Made by a program: the position numbers and the translations under genes
Source of the DNA: Cellulophaga sp. HaHaR_3_176
GTDB taxonomy: Bacteria > Bacteroidota > Bacteroidia > Flavobacteriales > Flavobacteriaceae
Length of the DNA stretch: 64,000 bases
Assembly: GCF_019021925.1 (NCBI RefSeq)
Contig: NZ_CP058990.1
Span: forward strand, 1,294,001-1,358,000
Direction of reading: 5' to 3'
Shown here: one piece after another, positions 39,647 through 50,852 of the stretch
Position numbering within the stretch: position 1 is the first letter of the stretch
Layout: every line of letters starts with the position of its first letter
The notes under the pieces: model-generated
Databases searched by the model: none
The model's input: only the letters and a program-made list of their open reading frames with translations
Told to the model about the DNA's origin: nothing

Positions 39647-40948
39647 ATGAAGAAATTGGAATTGCATTGGCAAATTTTAATAGGCATGTTAGCCGGAGTA
39701 TTATTTGCATTTATAATGGTTCAATTTAATTGGGGTGCAAAATTTGTTTCAGATTGGATAAAACCTTTCGGGAATATATTTATTAACTCTCTTAAACTTA
39801 TTGCAGTTCCTTTAATACTTGCTTCACTAATAAAAGGAGTCTCAGATTTAAAAGATATCTCTAAGCTTTCTCAAATGGGAGGTAGGACTATAGTAATATA
39901 TATATTTACTACTATAGTAGCAGTTTCTATAGGTTTAGCAGTAGTAAACGTTATACAACCAGGAAAATCTATATCAGAAGAAACAAGAACCCAATTAGTT
40001 GAAAACTATAAAGGTGATGCTGATTCTAGAATTGCACAAGCACACAAGCAAGAAGAATCTGGACCATTACAGGCGCTTGAAGATATTGTACCTAGTAATA
40101 TTTTTAAAGCGGCAAGTGACAATGGTAACATGCTACAAGTAATATTCTTTGCTATTTTCTTCGGTATTGGATTGATTCTTATCCCTGAAGAACATTCAAC
40201 ACCAGTAAAAAAATTCTTTGACGGTTTTAACGAAGTAATTCTAAAACTGATTGATTTAATTATGCTAGCTGCTCCGTTTGGAGTATTTGCTTTATTAGCA
40301 GCACTAGTGGTTGAATCCCCTAGTTTAGATCTTTTTAAAGCATTAGCTTGGTATGCATTGTGTGTTATTGTCGGTCTATTTTTAATGATATGTGTATATG
40401 TTGGTTTGGTATGGTTATTCACTAAAAAATCACCTTCCTTTTTCTTAAAAGCAATGTCACCTGCACAACTTTTAGCATTCTCTACAAGCTCTAGCGCTGC
40501 TACATTACCGGTTACAATGGAACGTGTAGAAGAGCATTTAGGAGTAGATGAAGAGGTTACCAGCTTTGTACTACCTATTGGAGCTACTATTAATATGGAT
40601 GGCACAAGTTTATACCAAGCTGTAGCTGCTATTTTTATAGCACAAGCATTCGGAATGGATTTAGATTTGTGGGCTCAATTAGGAATTATTGTTACCGCTA
40701 CACTAGCTTCTATTGGTAGTGCCGCTGTTCCAGGAGCAGGTATGGTAATGCTTGTTATTGTTCTTTCTCAGGCAGGAATACCAGAAGCTGGTCTTGCTTT
40801 GATTTTTGCAGTAGATAGACCATTAGATATGTGTAGAACTGTTGTAAATGTTACGGGTGATGCTGCTGTATCTATGATTGTTGCTAAATCTGTAGATAAA
40901 TTACATGAACCTAAAGAGAAAAAATGGGACGATAACTATAAAGCCTAA
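39647..40948 (+). CDS. dicarboxylate/amino acid:cation symporter
   Basis: A 433-residue inner-membrane transporter of the DAACS (GltP/DctA) family, coupling Na+ or H+ to uptake of glutamate, aspartate or C4-dicarboxylates. Seen are eight or so membrane helices, the serine-rich reentrant loop FSTSSSAATLPVT, the NMDGTSLY motif for cation/substrate binding and the second reentrant loop GSAAVPGAGMVML. The DRPLDMCRTVVNVTGD segment with Arg suggests an acidic substrate. An approximate promoter (TTTG, then TATCTTTC with one mismatch) is just upstream. It ends at a terminator. Confidence 0.93.
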   Translation: MKKLELHWQILIGMLAGVLFAFIMVQFNWGAKFVSDWIKPFGNIFINSLKLIAVPLILASLIKGVSDLKDISKLSQMGGRTIVIYIFTTIVAVSIGLAVVNVIQPGKSISEETRTQLVENYKGDADSRIAQAHKQEESGPLQALEDIVPSNIFKAASDNGNMLQVIFFAIFFGIGLILIPEEHSTPVKKFFDGFNEVILKLIDLIMLAAPFGVFALLAALVVESPSLDLFKALAWYALCVIVGLFLMICVYVGLVWLFTKKSPSFFLKAMSPAQLLAFSTSSSAATLPVTMERVEEHLGVDEEVTSFVLPIGATINMDGTSLYQAVAAIFIAQAFGMDLDLWAQLGIIVTATLASIGSAAVPGAGMVMLVIVLSQAGIPEAGLALIFAVDRPLDMCRTVVNVTGDAAVSMIVAKSVDKLHEPKEKKWDDNYKA

Positions 40949-40967
40949 AAACAATCATTTAAATATA

Positions 40968-40999
40968 AAAAAAAGAGTCCTATTTTGGACTCTTTTTTT
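40968..40999. terminator. bidirectional terminator hairpin
   Basis: AAAAAAAGAGTCC, 6-nt loop TATTTT, GGACTCTTTTTTT. It ends the symporter gene; it also lies 109 bp beyond the stop of the convergent lipid operon and may stop that transcript. Confidence 0.9.
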
Positions 41000-41107
41000 A
41001 TGCTTATTCATGAAATTTATCTGGTATAAGTTATACACTCTATAGACATATAAGCATCTTAAAGTAAAATAGCATCATTTGATTTACAACAAATTAACTA
41101 ATACTAC

Positions 41108-42802
41108 TTAAAAATTTACTTTAGCTGATGAAACGGTGAAGATTCCAAAATCATCAATGAGCATGGTTTCTTTATAGATTCCGTTATACGCCATCAATCT
41201 ATCTAATTCTTTTTGAGATCTTCTTCTCATCACCCAATTTTTCTTTTGATGACTATTTAAAACATAAGCAATCATTTTCAATTGTGGATGCCAAGGCTGA
41301 CCCGTATAGACCACATTAGCATTCTTTTCTGCTACAGACTGTATTCCTGCAAGCGCTTTACTCGCCATTTCATTATCACCAAAGAGTTCTAATATCCCGG
41401 ACACAATAATAATAGTTGGCTCAAAATTAATTTTCGTATAGGTTTCCGGGTCAAAACAATCAAAATCTGTAAATCGTACGTTCTTATAACCTTTACTGTC
41501 AATAACTTTCTGTCCTATTTCAATATTCTCTTTTACAAATTCATTGATTACAATTTCTGCCTCGGGGTATTTATCCTTAATGTCAAAAAGGTAATTTCCG
41601 GTACCACCAGCAATGTCCAAGATTTTAATCGTACGGCCTTCTTTTATTAAGTTTTCTATATTCTTTTCTAAAAGTTGTAATAGGTGTTGCTTTCGTATTC
41701 TAATTCCTCGCCAACCTATTGCTTCAAGGTAATTTTTATCCATTATAGTTCCAAAACCTAATTTGCCTTTAGGTTTATTATGGTAGACATAATCTAAAGA
41801 TGCTCCAGAGTCAAAACCATGTTCTAGGCCAATAGCCATTCCATTACTAATTTTTCCTATTTTACTTAAAGACCATTTTTGAAACTTGAAATTTAAGTTA
41901 TTACCTTCTTTATTTTGTAGACTCTTATGTTCTACTATTGAAAATTGGTCTGGCTCAAGGCTAAGCTTTTTCTGGGGCTGATTAAAACTCTGTACTGCAA
42001 AAGCTTTTATCTTATCATAGACAAGTTCTTTATTCGTTTCAAACAAAATGCCATGAAAAAAGTCTGGCAATACTTCAAGTTGCTTTAAATTTGTGTCTAA
42101 CTTATTGAAAAATATTTTTTGATCTTTATTAAATACCACCTTGTCTTTCTCTGCAGACAAAATAAGTGTTGGTGTATCTATAGCCTCTGCATCTTCTACC
42201 AAGCGTTTACCTGCATCTGCTAAGTCTATTAATAAATTTGCATCAATAGACCGTGTAATTAGAGAATCTGTATCATAGGCTTTCTGCTGTGCTACATCGT
42301 GCGTTAGCATGGTAGATTTTACATAACTTTTAATAATCAAACCCTTCTTTAGCTTAGTACCCAAAGTAATCATCTCATTCGCTAAAGGTACAATTAGGTT
42401 TATTTTAAAAGCCGGAGCAAGCAATGCCATACCTGCAATATTCGGCGCATAATCATGAACCCATGCAGAAGCAACTACACCACCAATACTATTAGCTATT
42501 ACAAAAATATCAGTACTAGGTATGGTGTATGCTGATTTTAAATAGTGCGCAAAAACATCTAAATCTCTCACATAATCCATAAAAACAGAAGATGTTTCCG
42601 TCTTCGTATGGCCATGACCACGAAGATCAAAAGCAAAAATATTATACTCTGAAAATTGAGAAGAGGTGGCAATATCATTTAAACGCTCAGAATGTTCATG
42701 TCCACGGTGAATGATGATAACACTCTTTTGAGATGGCTTGAAATTCCATTTGCGATAAAAAATTTCGCTTCCATCAAAACTATTAAAATGTCCATTGCTC
42801 AT
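41108..42802 (-). CDS. fused alpha/beta-hydrolase and SAM-dependent methyltransferase
   Basis: A 564-residue two-domain protein. Residues about 1-275 are a monoacylglycerol-lipase-like alpha/beta-hydrolase: IIHRGHEHSERL oxyanion region, nucleophile in ANSIGG (first Gly of GxSxG replaced by Ala), Asp in SAEKDKVVF and His in PDFFHG. Residues about 310-564 are a class I methyltransferase with motif I DIAGGTGNY. This fusion is known by annotation in several phyla; I know of no product. It is the last gene of the six-gene lipid operon and overlaps the PAP2-phosphatase gene by 4 nt. A role in hydrolysing or methylating a lipid head group is inference. Confidence 0.88.
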   Translation of the reverse strand: MSNGHFNSFDGSEIFYRKWNFKPSQKSVIIIHRGHEHSERLNDIATSSQFSEYNIFAFDLRGHGHTKTETSSVFMDYVRDLDVFAHYLKSAYTIPSTDIFVIANSIGGVVASAWVHDYAPNIAGMALLAPAFKINLIVPLANEMITLGTKLKKGLIIKSYVKSTMLTHDVAQQKAYDTDSLITRSIDANLLIDLADAGKRLVEDAEAIDTPTLILSAEKDKVVFNKDQKIFFNKLDTNLKQLEVLPDFFHGILFETNKELVYDKIKAFAVQSFNQPQKKLSLEPDQFSIVEHKSLQNKEGNNLNFKFQKWSLSKIGKISNGMAIGLEHGFDSGASLDYVYHNKPKGKLGFGTIMDKNYLEAIGWRGIRIRKQHLLQLLEKNIENLIKEGRTIKILDIAGGTGNYLFDIKDKYPEAEIVINEFVKENIEIGQKVIDSKGYKNVRFTDFDCFDPETYTKINFEPTIIIVSGILELFGDNEMASKALAGIQSVAEKNANVVYTGQPWHPQLKMIAYVLNSHQKKNWVMRRRSQKELDRLMAYNGIYKETMLIDDFGIFTVSSAKVNF

Positions 42803-44109
42803 ATATTGATTGTCTTTAAAAAATCCTGTACATAGCTATGTATTACAGCATTTTTATGGGTGGTTTTTATTTTTAGTACTGCTTCGTCTAAAGGTAAAGA
42901 TAGAATATTTTTCACAACAAGAATTCCTATAAATGTACTTCTACTAACCCCAATAGTACAATGAATTAGTATTTTTCCACCTTTAGGTAATTCTTTGTAA
43001 TGTGTTGTTATTTCTAAGACGATTCTTTTAATTTCGATAATATCGAAAGCTCCGATATCCAATAAGGGAACAGCATTGTATAGACAATTTTGTTTTATTG
43101 CTTTATTTTCTTCCAATTCTGCCGAAAAATCATACACTAATGTGTTTTGATTGCCATTAAAATTTTGAAATTCTGAATAATCAAGCCTCGACGAAACATA
43201 CAGCTTTGGAATAAGTTCTATAGGCTTTTTATTTTTCCTTAAAAATTTCCAAAACAACCAGTACAGCCCGATGTATGGGAAATACACTATTTTTTTATAC
43301 CACGGAATAGTACCCTGGTTATTTTTTAAAAAGTATATGCTATTTTTTTGGTAATGATACCCCACTAAAAATAGAACCAATGTGGGCCATAATAAAATGA
43401 GTCCGCTCGCATGATAAAATTCAAAGACCACCAGACTTAACAGAATCACCAGCCAGCTTCCTAAAAAATAATAGTTGGCAAGGTGAAAGCTTCGCAGCTT
43501 AAAATTATTATCCTGTGCTGGAAAAACGATAAAGCTCAATTGCCCTAAAATAGCCCCAGTAACGACATCTAGCAAATGATGTTGATAGGTGGTGAGTGTG
43601 GAAAGGCCCAATAACATGAGCCATACTGCTGCCACATATCGCCACGCATTTTTCAAATTTCTAAAGACAGACCAAAATATAAAAGCAAAAGCAATATGTA
43701 ATGATGGAGCTTCATTGAAAGGAGAATCTACTTTTTCAATAAATTGAAAGAAAAAATTGAATAAAATAGTACTCGTTTCTGGTTTTATGAATGAAAATTT
43801 TAAAGGGAATAATAGAAAGAAAAGTCCGCCAACAACACTCACAAATAATACCCGTTTTGTCAAAGTCTGTAGTTCTTGCCTTGTTTTACAAAGAAAAAAG
43901 ACAATAACAAAAAATATTCCGCTGGTCATATAAGGAATTACTGTCCAAGCAATAAAGGGGGTATACTTCTCAAAACTAAAAATAAATGAAGGCACATAAT
44001 CTAACGTAGACGCATACCAAGCATTCACATTATAAAACAGACTAAATACAGTAGCACAGAGCGCCGCTAGCTTTATTCTTATCCCTATTGCTATTCTTGT
44101 TTCATCCAT
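42799..44109 (-). CDS. fused PAP2 and dual-specificity phosphatase
   Basis: A 436-residue membrane protein. The N-terminal part (about 15-260) has several helices and a PAP2-type site: APSLHIA in place of PSGH, and HHLLD for the H-x3-D of the third motif. The PSLH form recalls Aur1/inositolphosphotransferase-like PAP2 proteins. The C-terminal part (about 290-436) is a cysteine phosphatase with HCTIGVSRS, the HCx5R loop of dual-specificity and PTPMT1-like lipid phosphatases. Both domains suit removal or transfer of phosphate on a phospholipid. It overlaps the SDR gene by 19 nt and the hydrolase-methyltransferase gene by 4 nt, so it is translationally coupled. Confidence 0.9.
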   Translation of the reverse strand: MDETRIAIGIRIKLAALCATVFSLFYNVNAWYASTLDYVPSFIFSFEKYTPFIAWTVIPYMTSGIFFVIVFFLCKTRQELQTLTKRVLFVSVVGGLFFLLFPLKFSFIKPETSTILFNFFFQFIEKVDSPFNEAPSLHIAFAFIFWSVFRNLKNAWRYVAAVWLMLLGLSTLTTYQHHLLDVVTGAILGQLSFIVFPAQDNNFKLRSFHLANYYFLGSWLVILLSLVVFEFYHASGLILLWPTLVLFLVGYHYQKNSIYFLKNNQGTIPWYKKIVYFPYIGLYWLFWKFLRKNKKPIELIPKLYVSSRLDYSEFQNFNGNQNTLVYDFSAELEENKAIKQNCLYNAVPLLDIGAFDIIEIKRIVLEITTHYKELPKGGKILIHCTIGVSRSTFIGILVVKNILSLPLDEAVLKIKTTHKNAVIHSYVQDFLKTINI

Positions 44110-44846
44110 TTGGCTTTTTTATACATAATAAGATTAAGGATAGGAGGAGGGAGTAGCGATAAGAATGTCATCATCCATTTCATTTTTAAAGGAAAAATAA
44201 CTAGCTTTTTTTTAGCATCAATAGCTTCGATAATTTTTTTTGTGGCCACATCAAGCGGCACTAAAAAAGGTTTTTTACTTAAGTCGTTGTTGTTTAATGC
44301 TCTTAATTTTAAAGTATCAATATACCCCGGAGCAATAGTAGTTATTGAAATGCCGAAAGGTTTTAAGGCTCTATGATAAGCATCTGAAATTTGGAGTATT
44401 GCACGTTTAGTTTTCGTATAAAGACTAGAGTTTTTATAATCTAAAATACCTGATACAGATGAAATTACCACAATATGACCAATTTTTTGATTTAGCATAG
44501 CTGTTCTTGCTACTTCGAAGCAATTAGTAGCTCCTAAAATATTGGTTTTAAGCATTTGTGCAGCTTCTTCATAAGAAATATTTCCTGCAACATCTTCTGC
44601 GTAGCTACCTGTGCAATTTATGAAGAGATCCAGATTTTCTTGTTTATTTAAAAAGCTTTGTACGGCCAACGTAAGTGAAGAAATCTCACAAACATCTGCC
44701 TGATACGCAAGTATATTAGAAGGCTTATTCTCTGAAATTTTATCTAAATCTCTACCACAAACCCCAACATGAAAGCCCTTAGCGCAATAATGTAGTGCTA
44801 ATGAATATCCAATTCCAGAAGTTCCGCCAGCAATAAAAATATTCAT
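44091..44846 (-). CDS. short-chain dehydrogenase/reductase
   Basis: I take the ATG at 44846 (251 residues), since the Rossmann fold begins there with NIFIAGGTSGIGYS. A longer frame from 44957 would run into the patatin-like gene and adds nothing family-like. NAD(P) motif GGTSGIG, the CGRD turn, the Ser in ISSVSG and Tyr-x3-Lys in YTKTK are intact. The C-terminal FPLKMKWMMTFLSLLPP is amphipathic and may reach the membrane. Its place inside the lipid operon suggests oxidation or reduction of a lipid chain or head group, which is inference. Confidence 0.88.
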   Translation of the reverse strand: MNIFIAGGTSGIGYSLALHYCAKGFHVGVCGRDLDKISENKPSNILAYQADVCEISSLTLAVQSFLNKQENLDLFINCTGSYAEDVAGNISYEEAAQMLKTNILGATNCFEVARTAMLNQKIGHIVVISSVSGILDYKNSSLYTKTKRAILQISDAYHRALKPFGISITTIAPGYIDTLKLRALNNNDLSKKPFLVPLDVATKKIIEAIDAKKKLVIFPLKMKWMMTFLSLLPPPILNLIMYKKAKWMKQE

Positions 44847-44905
44847 ATGTAAAAGGCTATTTTCATGAGTGTATAAATGTAAGTTTTTCAAAGCAATTAA
44901 TAGAA

Positions 44906-45949
44906 TTACTTTTCTATTTGCATGCTCTTCATGGTTTGCTGATATCCGTACTCCCATTGTTTATCCATATCATCTTTAAAGTCTTGGTAAGATTTAGGGT
45001 ATTCAAAGCAAATCTCAACGTTTTTCCAGTCTATACTTTTCTTGATGTAATGCCCTTCTAAATCTTTCTTGATATGAACGGTATCAATCTGAAAATTAGC
45101 GCCCTGATTTTCAATTTCTTGTAAACGTTGGTTGCCACTATACCCTAAAACTGCACGTACTAAGGCTTCTTCAACCGGACTATAAGACTGTTTTTTTTCT
45201 ATAGTTACCGTATTGGCTAAATGTTTAGCCAATTCAATAGGAATTAAATCAATAGCGCCTCCTGCAAAGTAGGTGTCTTCTAAGTATACAGGAGCCACAT
45301 AATACATATCAGAAACAGAAATCCGTGCACTAACTAACATGGAGAGATTTGTTTTAATTTCTACTGATCCTGATACGGCACTGTTTTTATAATTTTCGGA
45401 AGTAATGGTAATTGCGCTTAGGTCTATTTTACTAGCCGTTTCTTCATCTGTAAATATCACTTTTTGATACAATTTTTTACCGTCTCTTTTTTGCCCTATA
45501 AGCTTAGGATCAAAAAGTATTTGAGAACCTATAAAGAGTGTAGGTACTTTTGAAGAAAACTTCGTTGCTGTTAATGCCGGAAAATCTTCTGAAAAATCCT
45601 GAGATACGTCTGCAAGATATTTATGGAATACATCTTCCATAAAAGGGGCGTTCTTTTTAGATAACATTTTTTGGAGTGAAAGAAATCCTATCCTCGATAA
45701 CTTCTTCTCTTTTGTTAAACGTTCTTTTGTTGCAAATTGATAATACTCTTCTGATTTTAAATATGCTTTGCGTGATATCGTATCTGGAAAAGTATTAATT
45801 ACTGTTGCAGCAAAAGCACCTCCACATGTTGCAATAAGAACATCTGGTTTCATTTGTAACTCTTCTAATGCCGCATACATTCCAAGGTAAATCATTAACC
45901 GTGTACCTCCGCCAGAAAGAATAAAAGCGTTATTAAATTTACGTTGCAT
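44906..45949 (-). CDS. patatin-like protein with altered dyad
   Basis: A 347-residue patatin-fold protein. The oxyanion loop SGGGTR (12-17) is intact. Where active patatins have GxSxG this one reads IATCGG with Cys42 in place of Ser, and the Asp of the DGG/DGA motif reads AGG (Ala229), although an Asp sits three residues after it (Asp234). Either a Cys nucleophile works with another acid, or the protein is a non-catalytic lipid binder. It lies 3 nt after the CdsA gene and 59 nt before the SDR gene. The family call is firm; phospholipase activity is doubtful. Confidence 0.85.
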   Translation of the reverse strand: MQRKFNNAFILSGGGTRLMIYLGMYAALEELQMKPDVLIATCGGAFAATVINTFPDTISRKAYLKSEEYYQFATKERLTKEKKLSRIGFLSLQKMLSKKNAPFMEDVFHKYLADVSQDFSEDFPALTATKFSSKVPTLFIGSQILFDPKLIGQKRDGKKLYQKVIFTDEETASKIDLSAITITSENYKNSAVSGSVEIKTNLSMLVSARISVSDMYYVAPVYLEDTYFAGGAIDLIPIELAKHLANTVTIEKKQSYSPVEEALVRAVLGYSGNQRLQEIENQGANFQIDTVHIKKDLEGHYIKKSIDWKNVEICFEYPKSYQDFKDDMDKQWEYGYQQTMKSMQIEK

Positions 45950-45952
45950 AGC

Positions 45953-46768
45953 TTAGCTTTTTATTAATAACGGTAGTACCCAAAAGAAAATGGGCGCATT
46001 AAAAATAAGACTATCCATTCTATCCATAAGTCCGCCATGCCCAGGCAGTAACGCCCCAGTGTCTTTCATATTTGTTTTTCGCTTTAGTAGAGACATAAAA
46101 ACATCTCCAAAAAAACCTGAAACTCCCAAAATTATACCTAAAATTACATGAATTAGAATCGTAGAAGTCAAAAGAAAATACCCTAAAATAGTACTAAGTA
46201 CTGTGGTGAGAAACACACCTCCTATAACACCTTCCCAAGTCTTATTAGGACTAATTTTAGGCATTACTTTATGATTTCCAAAAAGCTTACCCATAAAATA
46301 TTGAAAGACATCATTTAATTCTGTAAGAACCACTAAATAAATAAGGGCTTTTATACCAAAAGCACTCTCTCTTAAATATAATAAATGCGGAAAAATCAGA
46401 AGGCTTAAGCTTAGCCCTATTACAATGCCAACACCTTGCTTTACGGTAACTTTTAGCATCAGAAAATAGATGAGAAATGTAATTAAGAAAGCAACAGCAT
46501 ACAGAAAATAATGTTCAAAATATAAAAAATAAAGCAATGAAAATTGTACAATCCCTAAGCTTAAAGCGGTAATGAGAAGGTTTCTTTTAACTTGAAACAT
46601 CCTTAAGAATTCATATAAAACTTGGCACCCTATCCAAGAGATAAAAAGTTTCATTGTTATAGAACTAGATATAGATATGGCAAATACTAAAATAATATAG
46701 CTCCATGTCTTTACCCGTAGCGGAACATCAGAAAATTTATTTTCAGAATTGTTTACTTCAAGCTCCAT
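45953..46768 (-). CDS. CdsA-like phosphatidate cytidylyltransferase
   Basis: A 271-residue integral membrane protein with about eight helices. The C-terminal CDS signature is complete: SLLKRKTNMKDTG followed by LLPGHGGLMDRMDS, and SPNKTWEGVIGG precedes it. It activates phosphatidic acid with CTP to CDP-diacylglycerol. Its placement next to a CDP-alcohol transferase suggests it is a dedicated enzyme for this operon rather than the housekeeping copy, which I have not seen in this window. It overlaps the upstream transferase gene by 11 nt. Confidence 0.92.
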   Translation of the reverse strand: MELEVNNSENKFSDVPLRVKTWSYIILVFAISISSSITMKLFISWIGCQVLYEFLRMFQVKRNLLITALSLGIVQFSLLYFLYFEHYFLYAVAFLITFLIYFLMLKVTVKQGVGIVIGLSLSLLIFPHLLYLRESAFGIKALIYLVVLTELNDVFQYFMGKLFGNHKVMPKISPNKTWEGVIGGVFLTTVLSTILGYFLLTSTILIHVILGIILGVSGFFGDVFMSLLKRKTNMKDTGALLPGHGGLMDRMDSLIFNAPIFFWVLPLLIKS

Positions 46769-47360
46769 GTAATGCTTTCTTTAGACGTGTAAAAGTACTG
46801 AGTACGAGCAATAAAATAATTATTCCAAAAATGTACCTAGAATAACTCGTAAGGTTTACACTAAAAAATAGGAGTAGACCATAAATACTTAAAAGTAAAG
46901 CACGATCACTTTTACCCATAGGACCATCATTTTTACGTTCTTTTCCTACTACTTTTCCTAATACTCCTGCAAATTCATTGATGATACTTAATGATATAAA
47001 CCCAATGATGATATATGAGCTCTCTGGTTGAAACTTAATCAAGGGAAAGAAAATAATAACGTCAGATACTAAATCTCCCATTTCATTTAGAACTTCACCT
47101 AATGCACTGGTTTGATTAAATTTTCTAGCCATCATGCCATCTAGGGCATTTAACGCCATTCGTAACAATAGTCCAATAGGTAAACTTAAGAAGAACCAGT
47201 GTATCCTATCTGCGTTCCAGAATAACAATCCAATAATAAAAGATACTAAAATAGAAGCTACCGTAATTTGATTTGCAGTTACATTACATTTATGTAAAAA
47301 AATTAAAACAGGATTTAAAATTTGTTGAAATTTGGGTTTTAATTTATAAATGGAAATCAT
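46758..47360 (-). CDS. CDP-alcohol phosphatidyltransferase with Asn-substituted motif
   Basis: A 200-residue membrane enzyme with about six helices. The CDP-alcohol motif D-x2-D-G-x2-A-R-x8-G-x3-D-x3-D is recognisable, but two of its four Asp are Asn: Asn71-x2-Asp74-Gly75...Ala78-Arg79...Gly88-x3-Asn92-x3-Asp96. In solved relatives these Asp residues bind the two catalytic metals and act as base. It is the first gene of the six-gene lipid operon, with a -7 box at 47390-47397. Its alcohol substrate is unknown. Because the rest of the motif and the fold are kept, I infer a distinct subfamily rather than decay. Confidence 0.85.
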   Translation of the reverse strand: MISIYKLKPKFQQILNPVLIFLHKCNVTANQITVASILVSFIIGLLFWNADRIHWFFLSLPIGLLLRMALNALDGMMARKFNQTSALGEVLNEMGDLVSDVIIFFPLIKFQPESSYIIIGFISLSIINEFAGVLGKVVGKERKNDGPMGKSDRALLLSIYGLLLFFSVNLTSYSRYIFGIIILLLVLSTFTRLKKALHGA

Positions 47361-47389
47361 GTAAGCTGCTTTTTTTCTACATTATATTT

Positions 47390-47397
47390 CAAATCTA
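47390..47397 (-). promoter_or_regulatory. -7 promoter box of six-gene lipid operon
   Basis: Minus-strand TAGATTTG fits TAnnTTTG, 29 bp before the first gene's ATG at 47360. A -33 box at normal spacing was not seen. Confidence 0.4.
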
Positions 47398-47586
47398 AGC
47401 CTTTTTATTAGAAATTACTCTATATCATTACAACACTAAAAATACCACAAACGAGTTCTTTAAGATGTATCATTTCTGTAATGAAACATTAATTTTTTAA
47501 TTTATAGCTACTCAACGAAAAATTAAAAGACACGAAAATGACTCAAATAGATTGATTACCTTGCGGCGTTTTAATACTCATAAATA

Positions 47587-48756
47587 ATGAATGCAAAGGA
47601 CTTAGTAGACTTACAGAGAACAAATGAATCTTTGTTTGATATAGACTCTAATTTAGATAGACTCGTAAAAAAAATTGAGCTTCTTAGCTATTTAAACCCT
47701 TCAAATACAGAAAAAGAAAAGCAACGTTTCTTTTCATCGAAATATACTATAAATCCGGAATTAAAATACCCGAAAATTAAATTTCATCCGTATAAATTAC
47801 ATAGGATGTTTTTTTCACAACGTTTAGAGCGTATTACAGATCAGAAAGTACAAAAACTGTATCAAGATATTATCTATTATTACTCAAATATGGTTCAATG
47901 TATACAAACTATAGGAGAACCTAAAAAGTTCCATTACAACTCTTTACGTGTGTATGGAACGCCTACTGAAAAGGATGTGCAGAATGCTAAATTCATTTTA
48001 CATCATTTTGATGAAGATGAGAGTGTTGATATGGAAAAAATATACACACCGAATGATGCTAAAGACTATTTTGAAGAGTTTTCGAAACAATATAATTTTC
48101 CGTTAAATATTAAGTTTTCGACAGCTATAGCGGCTGATGCTATGGTAAGTAATAGTACACAGACTTTATTGATAAAAAAGAATACTAAATTCAGCAAAAA
48201 CCAACTAATTACTTTAGCCAACCACGAAATTGGTGTGCATTTAGTAACTACATATAATGGTTTAGAACAACCATTAAAGATTTTTTCAAATGGTTTCCCT
48301 CGAAATGTAGAAACACAAGAAGGCCTTGCTGTATTTAGTGAATACATGAGTGGAGCTTTAACTTTAAAAAGACTCAAAACTCTGGCATATAGAGTTTTAG
48401 CATCAGACAGCTTAATTAAAGGTTATACCTTTTCTGATACTTTTGATATGATACACGGACAGTATAAATTAAATAGAGATGATGCTTTTGGTATTACTCT
48501 TAGAGTACACAGAGGAGGCGGATTTACTAAAGATAGGTTGTATTTAAGTGGATTAAAAAAAATATACAAACGCCACCAAAGAGGAGAAAGTTTAGATAAT
48601 TTATTAACTGGTAAAGTTACTATGGATTATGAAGCTGATATTGTTAATCTTCAAAACTTAGGTTTAGCAAATCCTATAACTCATAATAACATAGCTTATT
48701 TAGAAAATAAAAACGAGAATAAAACATTAGATTTTATACTTAATCATATGAAATAA
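47587..48756 (+). CDS. QEGLA-motif (DUF1704) putative metallopeptidase
   Basis: A 389-residue protein of the TIGR02421/DUF1704 family named for the QEGLA motif, seen here in NVETQEGLAVF. The zinc site is complete: NHEIGVH gives HExxH and the Glu of QEGLA is the likely third ligand. Known relatives in eukaryotes (MATCAP) are tubulin tyrosine carboxypeptidases; in bacteria the family was linked to flavohemoglobin expression, with no substrate. No signal peptide is seen, so it should act in the cytoplasm. It is divergent from the lipid operon (226 bp apart, enough for two promoters) and ends at a terminator. Confidence 0.88.
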   Translation: MNAKDLVDLQRTNESLFDIDSNLDRLVKKIELLSYLNPSNTEKEKQRFFSSKYTINPELKYPKIKFHPYKLHRMFFSQRLERITDQKVQKLYQDIIYYYSNMVQCIQTIGEPKKFHYNSLRVYGTPTEKDVQNAKFILHHFDEDESVDMEKIYTPNDAKDYFEEFSKQYNFPLNIKFSTAIAADAMVSNSTQTLLIKKNTKFSKNQLITLANHEIGVHLVTTYNGLEQPLKIFSNGFPRNVETQEGLAVFSEYMSGALTLKRLKTLAYRVLASDSLIKGYTFSDTFDMIHGQYKLNRDDAFGITLRVHRGGGFTKDRLYLSGLKKIYKRHQRGESLDNLLTGKVTMDYEADIVNLQNLGLANPITHNNIAYLENKNENKTLDFILNHMK

Positions 48757-48812: not shown

Positions 48813-50852
48813 TTATAAGGTAATATGCCTTTCTTTGGGGTATTTAACCTGAAAAGAGAAAGATTCTTTAGCTTCTTCTTTTGATTTAAGTTTCATTTTC
48901 CAAGTTAGTAGACCTTTTTTTTCATCGTAAATAGCATTATTTGTAATAATATCTTCTACTTTAATTTCTTTATTCTGAGAAATAGGTATTCTATCCATTA
49001 TCATTACATCAATAGCATTTGATTTATTATTTTTAATTTCTAAATTATAAGTTCTATTTAAAATACGGTTATTACCTGTAAAAGATTTGCTTTTAAAGTT
49101 TCTGTCTTGTTTTCTCGTAATTGTAATGGCGTCATCAACACCTAATGAAACAGTCATTTCTTTGTTTATAGTATAAGGATCAATTGTAGTTTTCCCTGCA
49201 AAACTGCCATTAAAGTAAACATTAGCTTCTCCTGGCAACAAATTTAATTTCTCCCAATCCTTGAATCTAGCCGTAAGAAAAACATTTTCATTAATTACTG
49301 GAGCAGCAAAAAACTCATAACTAGCATCAAGCTTAAATGTATTAATTTCTATGGATGAAAGATCTCCATCACTAGTAATAGAACAGGTTTTTTTTATACT
49401 AAACTTAGTACTGGTAACATCTTCTTGGCTTGTGCTTTTTTTCGTCGAAATTAATACAATGCCATTTGTTGCTCGACTCCCATAAATTTCTATACTAACC
49501 TCATTATTTAAAATTTCTATATCCTGAATCTCACTTACATCTAAATCACCTTCTTCAAATCCTTCCACAGGAACGCCATCAATAATATATAAAGGTTGAG
49601 AAGCCTTGGTAACATTTGATACCCCTCTAATCTGAATACCTGAAACTTTACCGGACAATGCACGTGTAATATTCGATTTTTCTCGACTCCCATAACCTAC
49701 AATTATAACCTCTTCTAAAGCTTCTAAATTTTCTTCAAGGTTTAAATTAATTCTAGAGGAGTAAATTGGTGTTTCATTAGTATTAAATCCTAAATGTGAA
49801 AAAACAAGTTCTTGCCCTGCTTGTGTATCTAAAGTATAAAAACCATCAAAATCTGTTTGGGTACCAATATTAGTTCCTTTTATAACAACATTACAGCCAG
49901 GTAATGGAGTACCAGACTCATCAGTAACAATACCTGATACTTTCTTAACTGTAGGGTTGTGCGTATATTTTTGCTTTTTTACCTGAGATAGGTATGACTT
50001 TCTGTGTCCAAAATTTAAATAATCTGTATTAACAGTAGGTTTTATTGTTAAAATATTCGGATTACCTGAAGATAGGGTTAATGCTACATCATTCCAATTC
50101 TCACCAGTTTTTTGATATACATGTGCTTTATAAATAAACTGTAATGGATCGTTTAATTTATTCGATTTGATATCGTAATTAGGTATCCAACCAGCATCTT
50201 GAACATTATATTTAATTTCTAATGTTAAATTTGAAATTATTGGAGTATCAAATTTTATACTGATTTCTCCTTTTGGTTTTATGGGTACTGAATTTTTTTC
50301 AGCTAATTGATTTCTGTAATCTTTAATAGAAATACTTAACTCATTGATTTTTGAATTTATGGAGAATATTTCATTTCTAATAGCTGTAATACGTTCTCTA
50401 TAGTAGGTGCTAATCGTTTTTAGTTTTTCTAGGTCTAAATTTTGATTTGTTGCACTAACTGTTCGGTTTTTTATAATTACAACTTCCTCTTCATCTAGGC
50501 CAGCTATCTTATTTTTAAGCATAGATATTTTCAATTCTAATGTTTTGATTTTAGTACTGATTTCATCAACTTCTATATTAATAATTGGTTTATCCAAATA
50601 GTTAATATCGTAACTAATAGAAAGTATAGAAGCAGCCTGTAAACCAGAAATTTGAATACTACTTTCATCTATTTTAGAAGATAAGCCTGTGAAAACAAGT
50701 TCAGATGTGCCATTTTCAATAGTAAATATAGCTTGTCGAGTAATTTCAGCACTGTTTTGATAAACAGTAACGGCTTTAATTTTTGAAGGAATTTTTTCGG
50801 ATCCGAAAATTAAAAATGGTAAAAACAGAGTTATAAAAAGTACTTTTTTCAT
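48813..50852 (-). CDS. MuiA-like (DUF4139) protein with inserted SusC-type plug module
   Basis: A 679-residue exported protein (signal peptide ending near residue 18). The MuiA/DUF4140-DUF4139 frame is seen at about 22-100, a coiled coil at about 95-185 and the DUF4139 sandwich at about 195-300 and 490-679. Between them, at about 304-473, lies a carboxypeptidase-regulatory domain (KKVSGIVTDESGTPLPGC, TQTDFDGFYTL) and a TonB-plug-like segment (EEVIIVGYGSREKSNITRALS, LYIIDGVP, RATNGIVLISTKK). No 22-strand barrel follows. Mucoidy inhibitor A-like proteins affect capsule in other bacteria. The insert probably docks the protein to a partner; function is unknown. A leader inverted repeat at 50858-50912 lies upstream. 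Confidence 0.82.
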   Translation of the reverse strand: MKKVLFITLFLPFLIFGSEKIPSKIKAVTVYQNSAEITRQAIFTIENGTSELVFTGLSSKIDESSIQISGLQAASILSISYDINYLDKPIINIEVDEISTKIKTLELKISMLKNKIAGLDEEEVVIIKNRTVSATNQNLDLEKLKTISTYYRERITAIRNEIFSINSKINELSISIKDYRNQLAEKNSVPIKPKGEISIKFDTPIISNLTLEIKYNVQDAGWIPNYDIKSNKLNDPLQFIYKAHVYQKTGENWNDVALTLSSGNPNILTIKPTVNTDYLNFGHRKSYLSQVKKQKYTHNPTVKKVSGIVTDESGTPLPGCNVVIKGTNIGTQTDFDGFYTLDTQAGQELVFSHLGFNTNETPIYSSRINLNLEENLEALEEVIIVGYGSREKSNITRALSGKVSGIQIRGVSNVTKASQPLYIIDGVPVEGFEEGDLDVSEIQDIEILNNEVSIEIYGSRATNGIVLISTKKSTSQEDVTSTKFSIKKTCSITSDGDLSSIEINTFKLDASYEFFAAPVINENVFLTARFKDWEKLNLLPGEANVYFNGSFAGKTTIDPYTINKEMTVSLGVDDAITITRKQDRNFKSKSFTGNNRILNRTYNLEIKNNKSNAIDVMIMDRIPISQNKEIKVEDIITNNAIYDEKKGLLTWKMKLKSKEEAKESFSFQVKYPKERHITL

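Follow-up and report, generated by a model that had tools for sequence, protein, structure and literature searches.

An enlarged ynbABCD-type operon with substituted active-site residues in Cellulophaga sp. HaHaR_3_176

A six-gene operon with orthologues of YnbA to YnbD

Six minus-strand genes of Cellulophaga sp. HaHaR_3_176, here called A, B, P, S, D, and C in their order of transcription, lie at positions 41108–47360 of the window analyzed (the whole 64,000-nucleotide stretch of contig NZ_CP058990.1 from 1,294,001 to 1,358,000, in a genome of 3.8 Mb). Together they form an enlarged ynbABCD module that is real, conserved, and mobile and was probably acquired by horizontal transfer. An earlier note on this DNA had described a tightly packed gene set, and the coordinates agree with it: neighboring genes overlap by 11, 19, and 4 nt or are separated by gaps of 3 nt and, once, 59 nt. 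The larger gap follows from the start preferred for gene S (the ATG at 44846), whose open frame reaches 44957. The family assignments made in that note also hold in Pfam (CDP-OH_P_transf, CTP_transf_1, Patatin, adh_short, PAP2/PAP2_3, and Hydrolase_4 with Methyltransf_20). The dual-specificity phosphatase domain of D (DSPc, 24.5 bits) is the sole domain of the operon to score under its Pfam cut-off (33.5).

BLASTP pairs four of the proteins with E. coli K-12 YnbA (A, E = 1e-42), YnbB (B, 3e-42), YnbC (C, 8e-147), and YnbD (D, 3e-56), no other Ynb protein matching at E < 0.08; identities in pairwise MAFFT alignments are 38%, 40%, 40%, and 31%, respectively. The two fusion proteins of the operon are therefore YnbC and YnbD, and RefSeq gives the same fusion names to ynbC and ynbD. 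The four orthologues are encoded together and carry the residues typical of the family (N71/N92 in A, D153/Q156 and the KD/DR signature in B, QxWHP in C, PSLH and QHHxxD in D). Membership of the operon in the ynbABCD group is nearly certain. The E. coli genes (b1408–b1411) are likewise adjacent, encode the same two domain fusions, and show the double-Asn motif in YnbA. In contrast, they lack counterparts of P and S and follow the order A-B-C-D rather than A-B-P-S-D-C. Of 5426 E. coli genomes, 4242 have coverage of 80% or more of the ynbABCD stretch, and yet no product has been assigned to this known gene set, its function being unsettled in E. coli too. The earlier reading of a transferred, phospholipid-type operon is supported, although it missed the kinship of A–D with ynbABCD and did not recognize the fusions as ynbC and ynbD.

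Table 1. Coordinates of the operon genes and adjoining elements within the window
Feature	Position	Strand	Basis
Gene A, YnbA orthologue, CDP-alcohol phosphotransferase subfamily	46758..47360	-	Pfam, BLASTP
Gene B, YnbB orthologue, CdsA-like CTP:phosphatidate cytidylyltransferase	45953..46768	-	catalytic signature intact
Gene P, patatin-fold protein, Cys42 for Ser nucleophile, Ala229 for dyad Asp	44906..45949	-	
Gene S, classical short-chain dehydrogenase/reductase (SDR)	44091..44846	-	adh_short
Gene D, YnbD orthologue, fusion of PAP2 domain (PSLH...QHHxxD) and dual-specificity phosphatase domain	42799..44109	-	
Gene C, YnbC orthologue, fusion of monoglyceride-lipase-like alpha/beta hydrolase and class I methyltransferase (PF12147)	41108..42802	-	
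TAGATTTG, Bacteroidota -7-like promoter element upstream of the operon	47390..47397	-	alignment of upstream regions
Bidirectional terminator-like hairpin between dctA and the operon 3' end	40968..40999	.	

The upstream element TAGATTTG fits the Bacteroidota -7 consensus, TAnnTTTG. It is kept in all five distinct upstream regions of the genus that were aligned (six rows, L129 being the same contig as L031; G and L numbers are our labels), including that of L128, which has diverged everywhere else. A sigma-70 style promoter scan remained at chance level (25 found, 30.4 in shuffles). Rfam gave no match at gathering score across 40900–48000, and an RNA element was dropped as a reading. Among the named relatives found, the nearest is Cellulophaga baltica DSM 24729, whose C protein is 95% identical (L031) and whose flanking aroC, dctA, and MATCAP genes are 88–97% identical.

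Conservation, variants, and movement of the module

We compared 84 loci, comprising 79 distinct loci similar to C (from the best 80 of 113 matches), E. coli, and four relatives, and counted genes within about 4.8 kb of C. L129–L131 and L133 were left out as apparent duplicates of the counted L031, L032, L034, and L033, and weak PF12147 matches (G007, E = 3.5e-4, and similar ones elsewhere) were not taken as C. Since many rows are close relatives (29 are Psychrobacter), row counts here and below are not counts of independent events.

The order A-B-P-S-D-C recurs in 21 of the 84 loci, all from Bacteroidota (Cellulophaga, Chryseobacterium, and assemblies labelled Algibacter and Aquimarina); one gene is split into two frames in two of them (L047, L050). 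Given this recurrence, the arrangement is not due to chance, and the six genes do look like one phospholipid-type operon, as had been proposed. The earlier note had made this depend on conservation of gene order beyond close relatives, and the order is common to loci of Flavobacteriaceae and Weeksellaceae.

Other lineages arrange the module differently. In all 29 Psychrobacter loci, a single open frame matches both A and C, with P next in line and, in 28, S and a reversed B as well; for L088, PF01066 (23.0 bits, cut-off 22) was confirmed in the same protein as the hydrolase and methyltransferase domains. Aliivibrio shows A-C-P-S with B and D reversed. Pseudomonas, Agrobacterium, the Ochrobactrum group, Neptunomonas, and others encode A, C, and D with a small hydrophobic protein, a PlsC-family acyltransferase (PF01553), and B. 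Variants of this type, found also on a Shinella plasmid, share A, B, C, and D with the Cellulophaga operon but have the acyltransferase and the small membrane protein in place of P and S. The P–S pair and PlsC look like alternatives: P is present in 51 loci, PlsC in 25, both in none, and neither in eight, of which three (L049, L062, L077) lie at contig ends or on short contigs. The small protein (140–160 aa, no Pfam match) follows ynbD in the PlsC-type proteobacterial modules (L109 13076–13513, L056 13071–13547, and similar). A fusion of MFS, PlsC, and AMP-binding domains adjoins the ynb module of a marine metagenome-assembled genome (L048 773–4213, + strand), where it is a second acyl-chain enzyme.

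Gene D is common among the modules. It is absent from a 14.7-kb stretch of Fusobacterium vincentii, where of the module genes only C, A, and B were found, in the order C-A-B, and was not found at E <= 0.001 in G040, a relative from another genus in which A-B-P-S lies far from C. D is therefore dispensable, and the locus comparison, together with Fusobacterium and G040, makes A, B, and C the most widely kept genes. In five of eight Psychrobacter genomes searched, in which D is not beside the module, its PAP2 part was matched elsewhere in the genome (G488, G489, G491, G492, G494; L138–L142).

Horizontal acquisition, which the earlier note had thought possible, is probable because of base composition, a sister genome in which the site is empty, and copies on plasmids. 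The G+C content at third codon positions is 0.259 for the six genes concatenated versus a mean of 0.176 (standard deviation 0.028) for the other 47 genes of the window, in line with the higher GC first noticed by eye. Within the genus, C, A, and P are present in the same 7 of 18 genomes, as in gain or loss of a block. A and P were not found at E <= 1e-8 in the other 42 relatives searched (60 in all). C was found at E < 1e-89 in two of 43 other genomes of the family (G040, G053) and at E <= 1e-30 in none of 394 other genomes sampled from the phylum.

In G000 (the genome studied here), G005, G010, G013, and G016, dctA and a MATCAP-family gene flank the operon. In G004, which has no operon, the matches to these two genes end 27 nt apart, as at an empty site. 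Neither neighbor is seen in the stretches that surround the operon in G017 and G009. In G001, the dctA–MATCAP interval holds a second DctA-like gene (L122 8230–9531), and in G014 (L124 3400–9700), it holds a number of unrelated genes (one of them, judged by eye, encoding an ACR3-like transporter) and a DctA-like gene. Because these intervals carry other genes, the site looks like an insertion hot spot of the genus.

C also matches 57 of 72,556 plasmid records, 29 of them at >=80% coverage, and one C-bearing record is a 2.1-Mb Fusobacterium replicon catalogued as a plasmid. A mobilizable plasmid of Moraxella osloensis carries A, C, P, S, B, and a PAP2 gene beside transposases, its annotated C gene being the methyltransferase part only. 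A phage origin was rejected, as C had no tblastn match among 50,697 phage records. In a tree of C, one clade (SH-aLRT 99) holds the Bacteroidota and another Aliivibrio with Psychrobacter, and a third contains E. coli, the other proteobacteria, and an Elusimicrobium metagenome-assembled genome; 23 of 29 Psychrobacter rows were left out, several branches are long, and the deep joins are unsure.

Active sites of the encoded proteins

Protein A matches PF01066 at 40.9 bits (cut-off 22), and it lacks the four-Asp signature D1xxD2GxxAR...GxxxD3xxxD4. Its motifs read NxxDGxxARx8GxxxNxxxD and GPxGKSDRA, with Asn (N71, N92) for D1 and D3 in 78 of the 78 rows with residues (4 of 82 are gapped). Counted over loci with duplicates included, Asn stands at both positions in 89 matches and Asp at both in two. 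The A proteins of Fusobacterium, Moraxella, and Shinella have Asn at both sites, and the host's two other members of the family have Asp at both. Also conserved are D74, D96, G75, A78, G88, E93, D100, R142, and the tested residues of GPxGKSDR. The best profile match among solved structures is Mycobacterium tuberculosis phosphatidylinositol phosphate synthase (PIPS), and A residues R153 (81/81 rows with residues) and R192 (80/80) align with its R155 and R195. According to reports cited here by PMC number, these two Arg bind the acceptor phosphate (PMC4634129, PMC6506517), and all four Asp of PIPS bind two metals (PMC6506517).

Gene B encodes a protein with a CTP_transf_1 match (190.5 bits) and the KR-KD-HGG-DR-D signature. 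S226, K229, R230, K235, D236, D249, R250, and D252 are present in all 77 rows with residues. Another CdsA (L146) is encoded elsewhere in the genome, so B is an additional copy.

The catalytic dyad of patatins consists of a Ser in GxSxG and an Asp in DG[GA]. P has the patatin fold (structure model pLDDT 91.2), but Cys42 occupies the position of the nucleophilic Ser in 52 of 52 rows, and position 229, that of the dyad Asp, is Ala in 19, Leu in 29, and Met in 4. In both respects P differs from patatin-like phospholipases such as PlpD, CapV, and patatin. No solved structure matched P by sequence up to E 0.1.

The PAP2 domain of D scores 34.2 bits (cut-off 27.2), and its residues are retained (PSLH, H177, and D181 in 55/55 rows, H178 in 54/55). 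The Cys, Gly, Arg, and Ser of the C(x)5RS loop are invariant in 55/55 rows, suggesting that the dual-specificity phosphatase part, despite its score, is likely real. A crude hydropathy scan placed membrane helices inside this soluble domain, and no topology was drawn. In C, the lipase residues S105, D220, and H250 and the S-adenosylmethionine (SAM)-site residues D396 and G400 are kept in 84 of the 84 rows with residues, and the methyltransferase part has the class I SAM fold and SAM motif I. Its structure search returned general small-molecule methyltransferases, so that no substrate can be named. The enzyme roles first assigned to these proteins were thus too simple. The families were right, but P has no Ser-Asp dyad, the metal-site motif of A is changed, and the phosphatase gene can be missing.

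What the module may make

No end product had been recognized for the operon, and none was found in the literature searched. Among the papers listed in searches by gene name, in a library with few subscription journals, no function appeared except a link between YnbB and the glycolipid MPIase. The operon name gave unrelated matter only, and the gene combination gave nothing. Among the papers listed for CDP-alcohol transferases with Asn or for Cys-type patatins, judged mostly from these listings, none told of a product or of such an Asn/Cys substitution. PMC13313352 only names ynbC in a list of mutated genes and provided no evidence here.

The operon probably builds a membrane lipid with enzymes whose usual catalytic residues are swapped. 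Our best explanation, for which we see about an even chance, is that the product is a minor methylated phospholipid made outside the housekeeping pathway. B would make CDP-diacylglycerol locally, at its site of use. A, with its altered metal site, would move the phosphatidyl group onto a small alcohol carrying a phosphate or another anion, held by R153 and R192. Where present, D would strip phosphate through its dual-specificity phosphatase domain, its PAP2 domain, or both. C might methylate the head group or a precursor, its lipase domain deacylating or transacylating. The P–S pair could do the acyl-chain work done by PlsC in other variants, with P as a Cys acyl-enzyme acyltransferase and S reducing a keto or aldehyde group. 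In favor of this explanation are the orthology of A–D with YnbA–D, the physical linkage of the genes, their gain and loss as a block in the genus, the intact signature of B, the PIPS match and Arg pair of A, the retained lipase and SAM-site residues of C, and the lack of any compared locus with both P and PlsC. More tentatively, and at somewhat less than an even chance, the whole ynbABCD family would make, under inducing conditions, a previously undescribed methylated phospholipid common to E. coli and to bacteria scattered over several phyla, relying on a double-Asn class of CDP-alcohol transferase and, in P–S variants, on a Cys-nucleophile patatin-fold acyltransferase replacing PlsC.

Several points weigh against a methylated phospholipid. 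Having Asn at two metal-ligand positions, A could be inactive: Asp-to-Ala changes leave CHPT1 with <20% activity and deprive fungal Cho1 of its function (PMC10182977, PMC8727905). The E. coli proteins add further doubt: YnbB, even overproduced, did not complement loss of cdsA (PMC6362211), so B may not be a bulk CDP-diacylglycerol synthase, and YnbD, tested as a fourth E. coli PAP2 protein, did not rescue undecaprenyl-pyrophosphate or phosphatidylglycerophosphate phosphatase mutants (PMC7413402). Some modules have no D, similarity to the C of the window decided which loci were compared, and the mutual exclusion of P and PlsC tracks lineages and rests on few independent events. The acceptor of A is a further difficulty. 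Cholinephosphotransferases, whose acceptor is diacylglycerol, came weakly first in a single-sequence search with A (E 2e-4), and in the 22 rows shown, the residue at the position of PIPS R94, after D4, is not Lys or Arg but Leu, Val, or Ile.

Because R94 is reported to be critical for inositol phosphate, its hydrophobic replacement suggests that the acceptor is not simply inositol phosphate. A scores 76.2 bits with the curated model for archaetidylinositol phosphate synthase (NF040950, cut-off 180), 44.4 with NF045883 (170), and 28.1 with NF052561 (350); given these scores, far under the cut-offs, and the R94 position, membership among inositol-phosphate synthases was rejected. So was a cholinephosphotransferase reading, since EcoCyc withdrew this label for YnbA (PMC3781023). 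We read A as a putative transferase for an anionic acceptor other than inositol phosphate. The layout of a PI-phosphate synthase followed by a phosphatase serves as a comparison. The operon resembles PI-phosphate and archaetidylinositol-phosphate synthase systems in the PIPS match, the two acceptor-phosphate Arg, and its phosphatase gene. It differs from them in the metal-site motif, the R94 position, and the added lipase-methyltransferase and P–S pair.

Alternatively, the module could make or adjust an MPIase-like, pyrophosphate-linked glycolipid, with B attaching a sugar phosphate to diacylglycerol pyrophosphate and the other proteins tailoring or recycling that lipid. YnbB overproduction raised MPIase about as CdsA did, YnbB could not take over from CdsA in supporting growth, and under Tam41p expression the defect was more severe once ynbB was lost (PMC6362211); a 2019 paper, by its title, names YnbB a CdsA paralogue dedicated to MPIase. 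Against this, a plain ynbB knockout brought no significant change in MPIase (PMC6362211), and a CDP-alcohol transferase, a methyltransferase, and lipases are not obviously needed for MPIase synthesis. We consider an MPIase role unlikely.

It is quite unlikely that the operon is instead a repair or turnover system, hydrolyzing and re-modifying damaged phospholipids under envelope stress without building a new lipid: the most widely kept genes, A, B, and C, point to synthesis. Such a system would suit the lipase-like, patatin-like, and two phosphatase-like domains and the activation of ynbA by BglJ-RcsB stated in PMC12871917. A ynbC transposon insertion led to polyphosphate accumulation in one strain background, HMS174(DE3), but the effect was not seen in Keio deletions, and the insertion could be polar (PMC2435150). 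Finally, A may have ceased to be a transferase, its double-Asn site binding CDP-lipid or metal only and A acting as a subunit or scaffold for C. The replacement of two metal-ligand Asp in every row with residues and the fusion of A to C in the 29 Psychrobacter loci are consistent with this. However, the remaining motif residues (D74, D96, G75, A78, G88) and the acceptor Arg pair are still conserved, and the Asn are strictly conserved rather than drifting, suggesting retained chemistry. A scaffold role is very unlikely.

With this comparison, the ynbABCD product becomes a tractable lipidomics problem. The stretch is in most E. coli genomes compared, yet the searches made showed no function for the operon beyond the reported YnbB–MPIase link. 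The comparison offers handles in the widely kept A, B, and C, the natural Asn for two catalytic Asp, and the Cys patatin-fold protein that alternates with PlsC. If A and P are active, two textbook active-site rules change.

Elsewhere in the window, a DUF4140/DUF4139 protein (48813–50852, minus strand) contains CarboxypepD_reg_2 and TonB plug domains inside its DUF4139 stretch. The DUF4139 match spans residues 211–673 of 679 aa against a 205-position model, an odd domain insertion.

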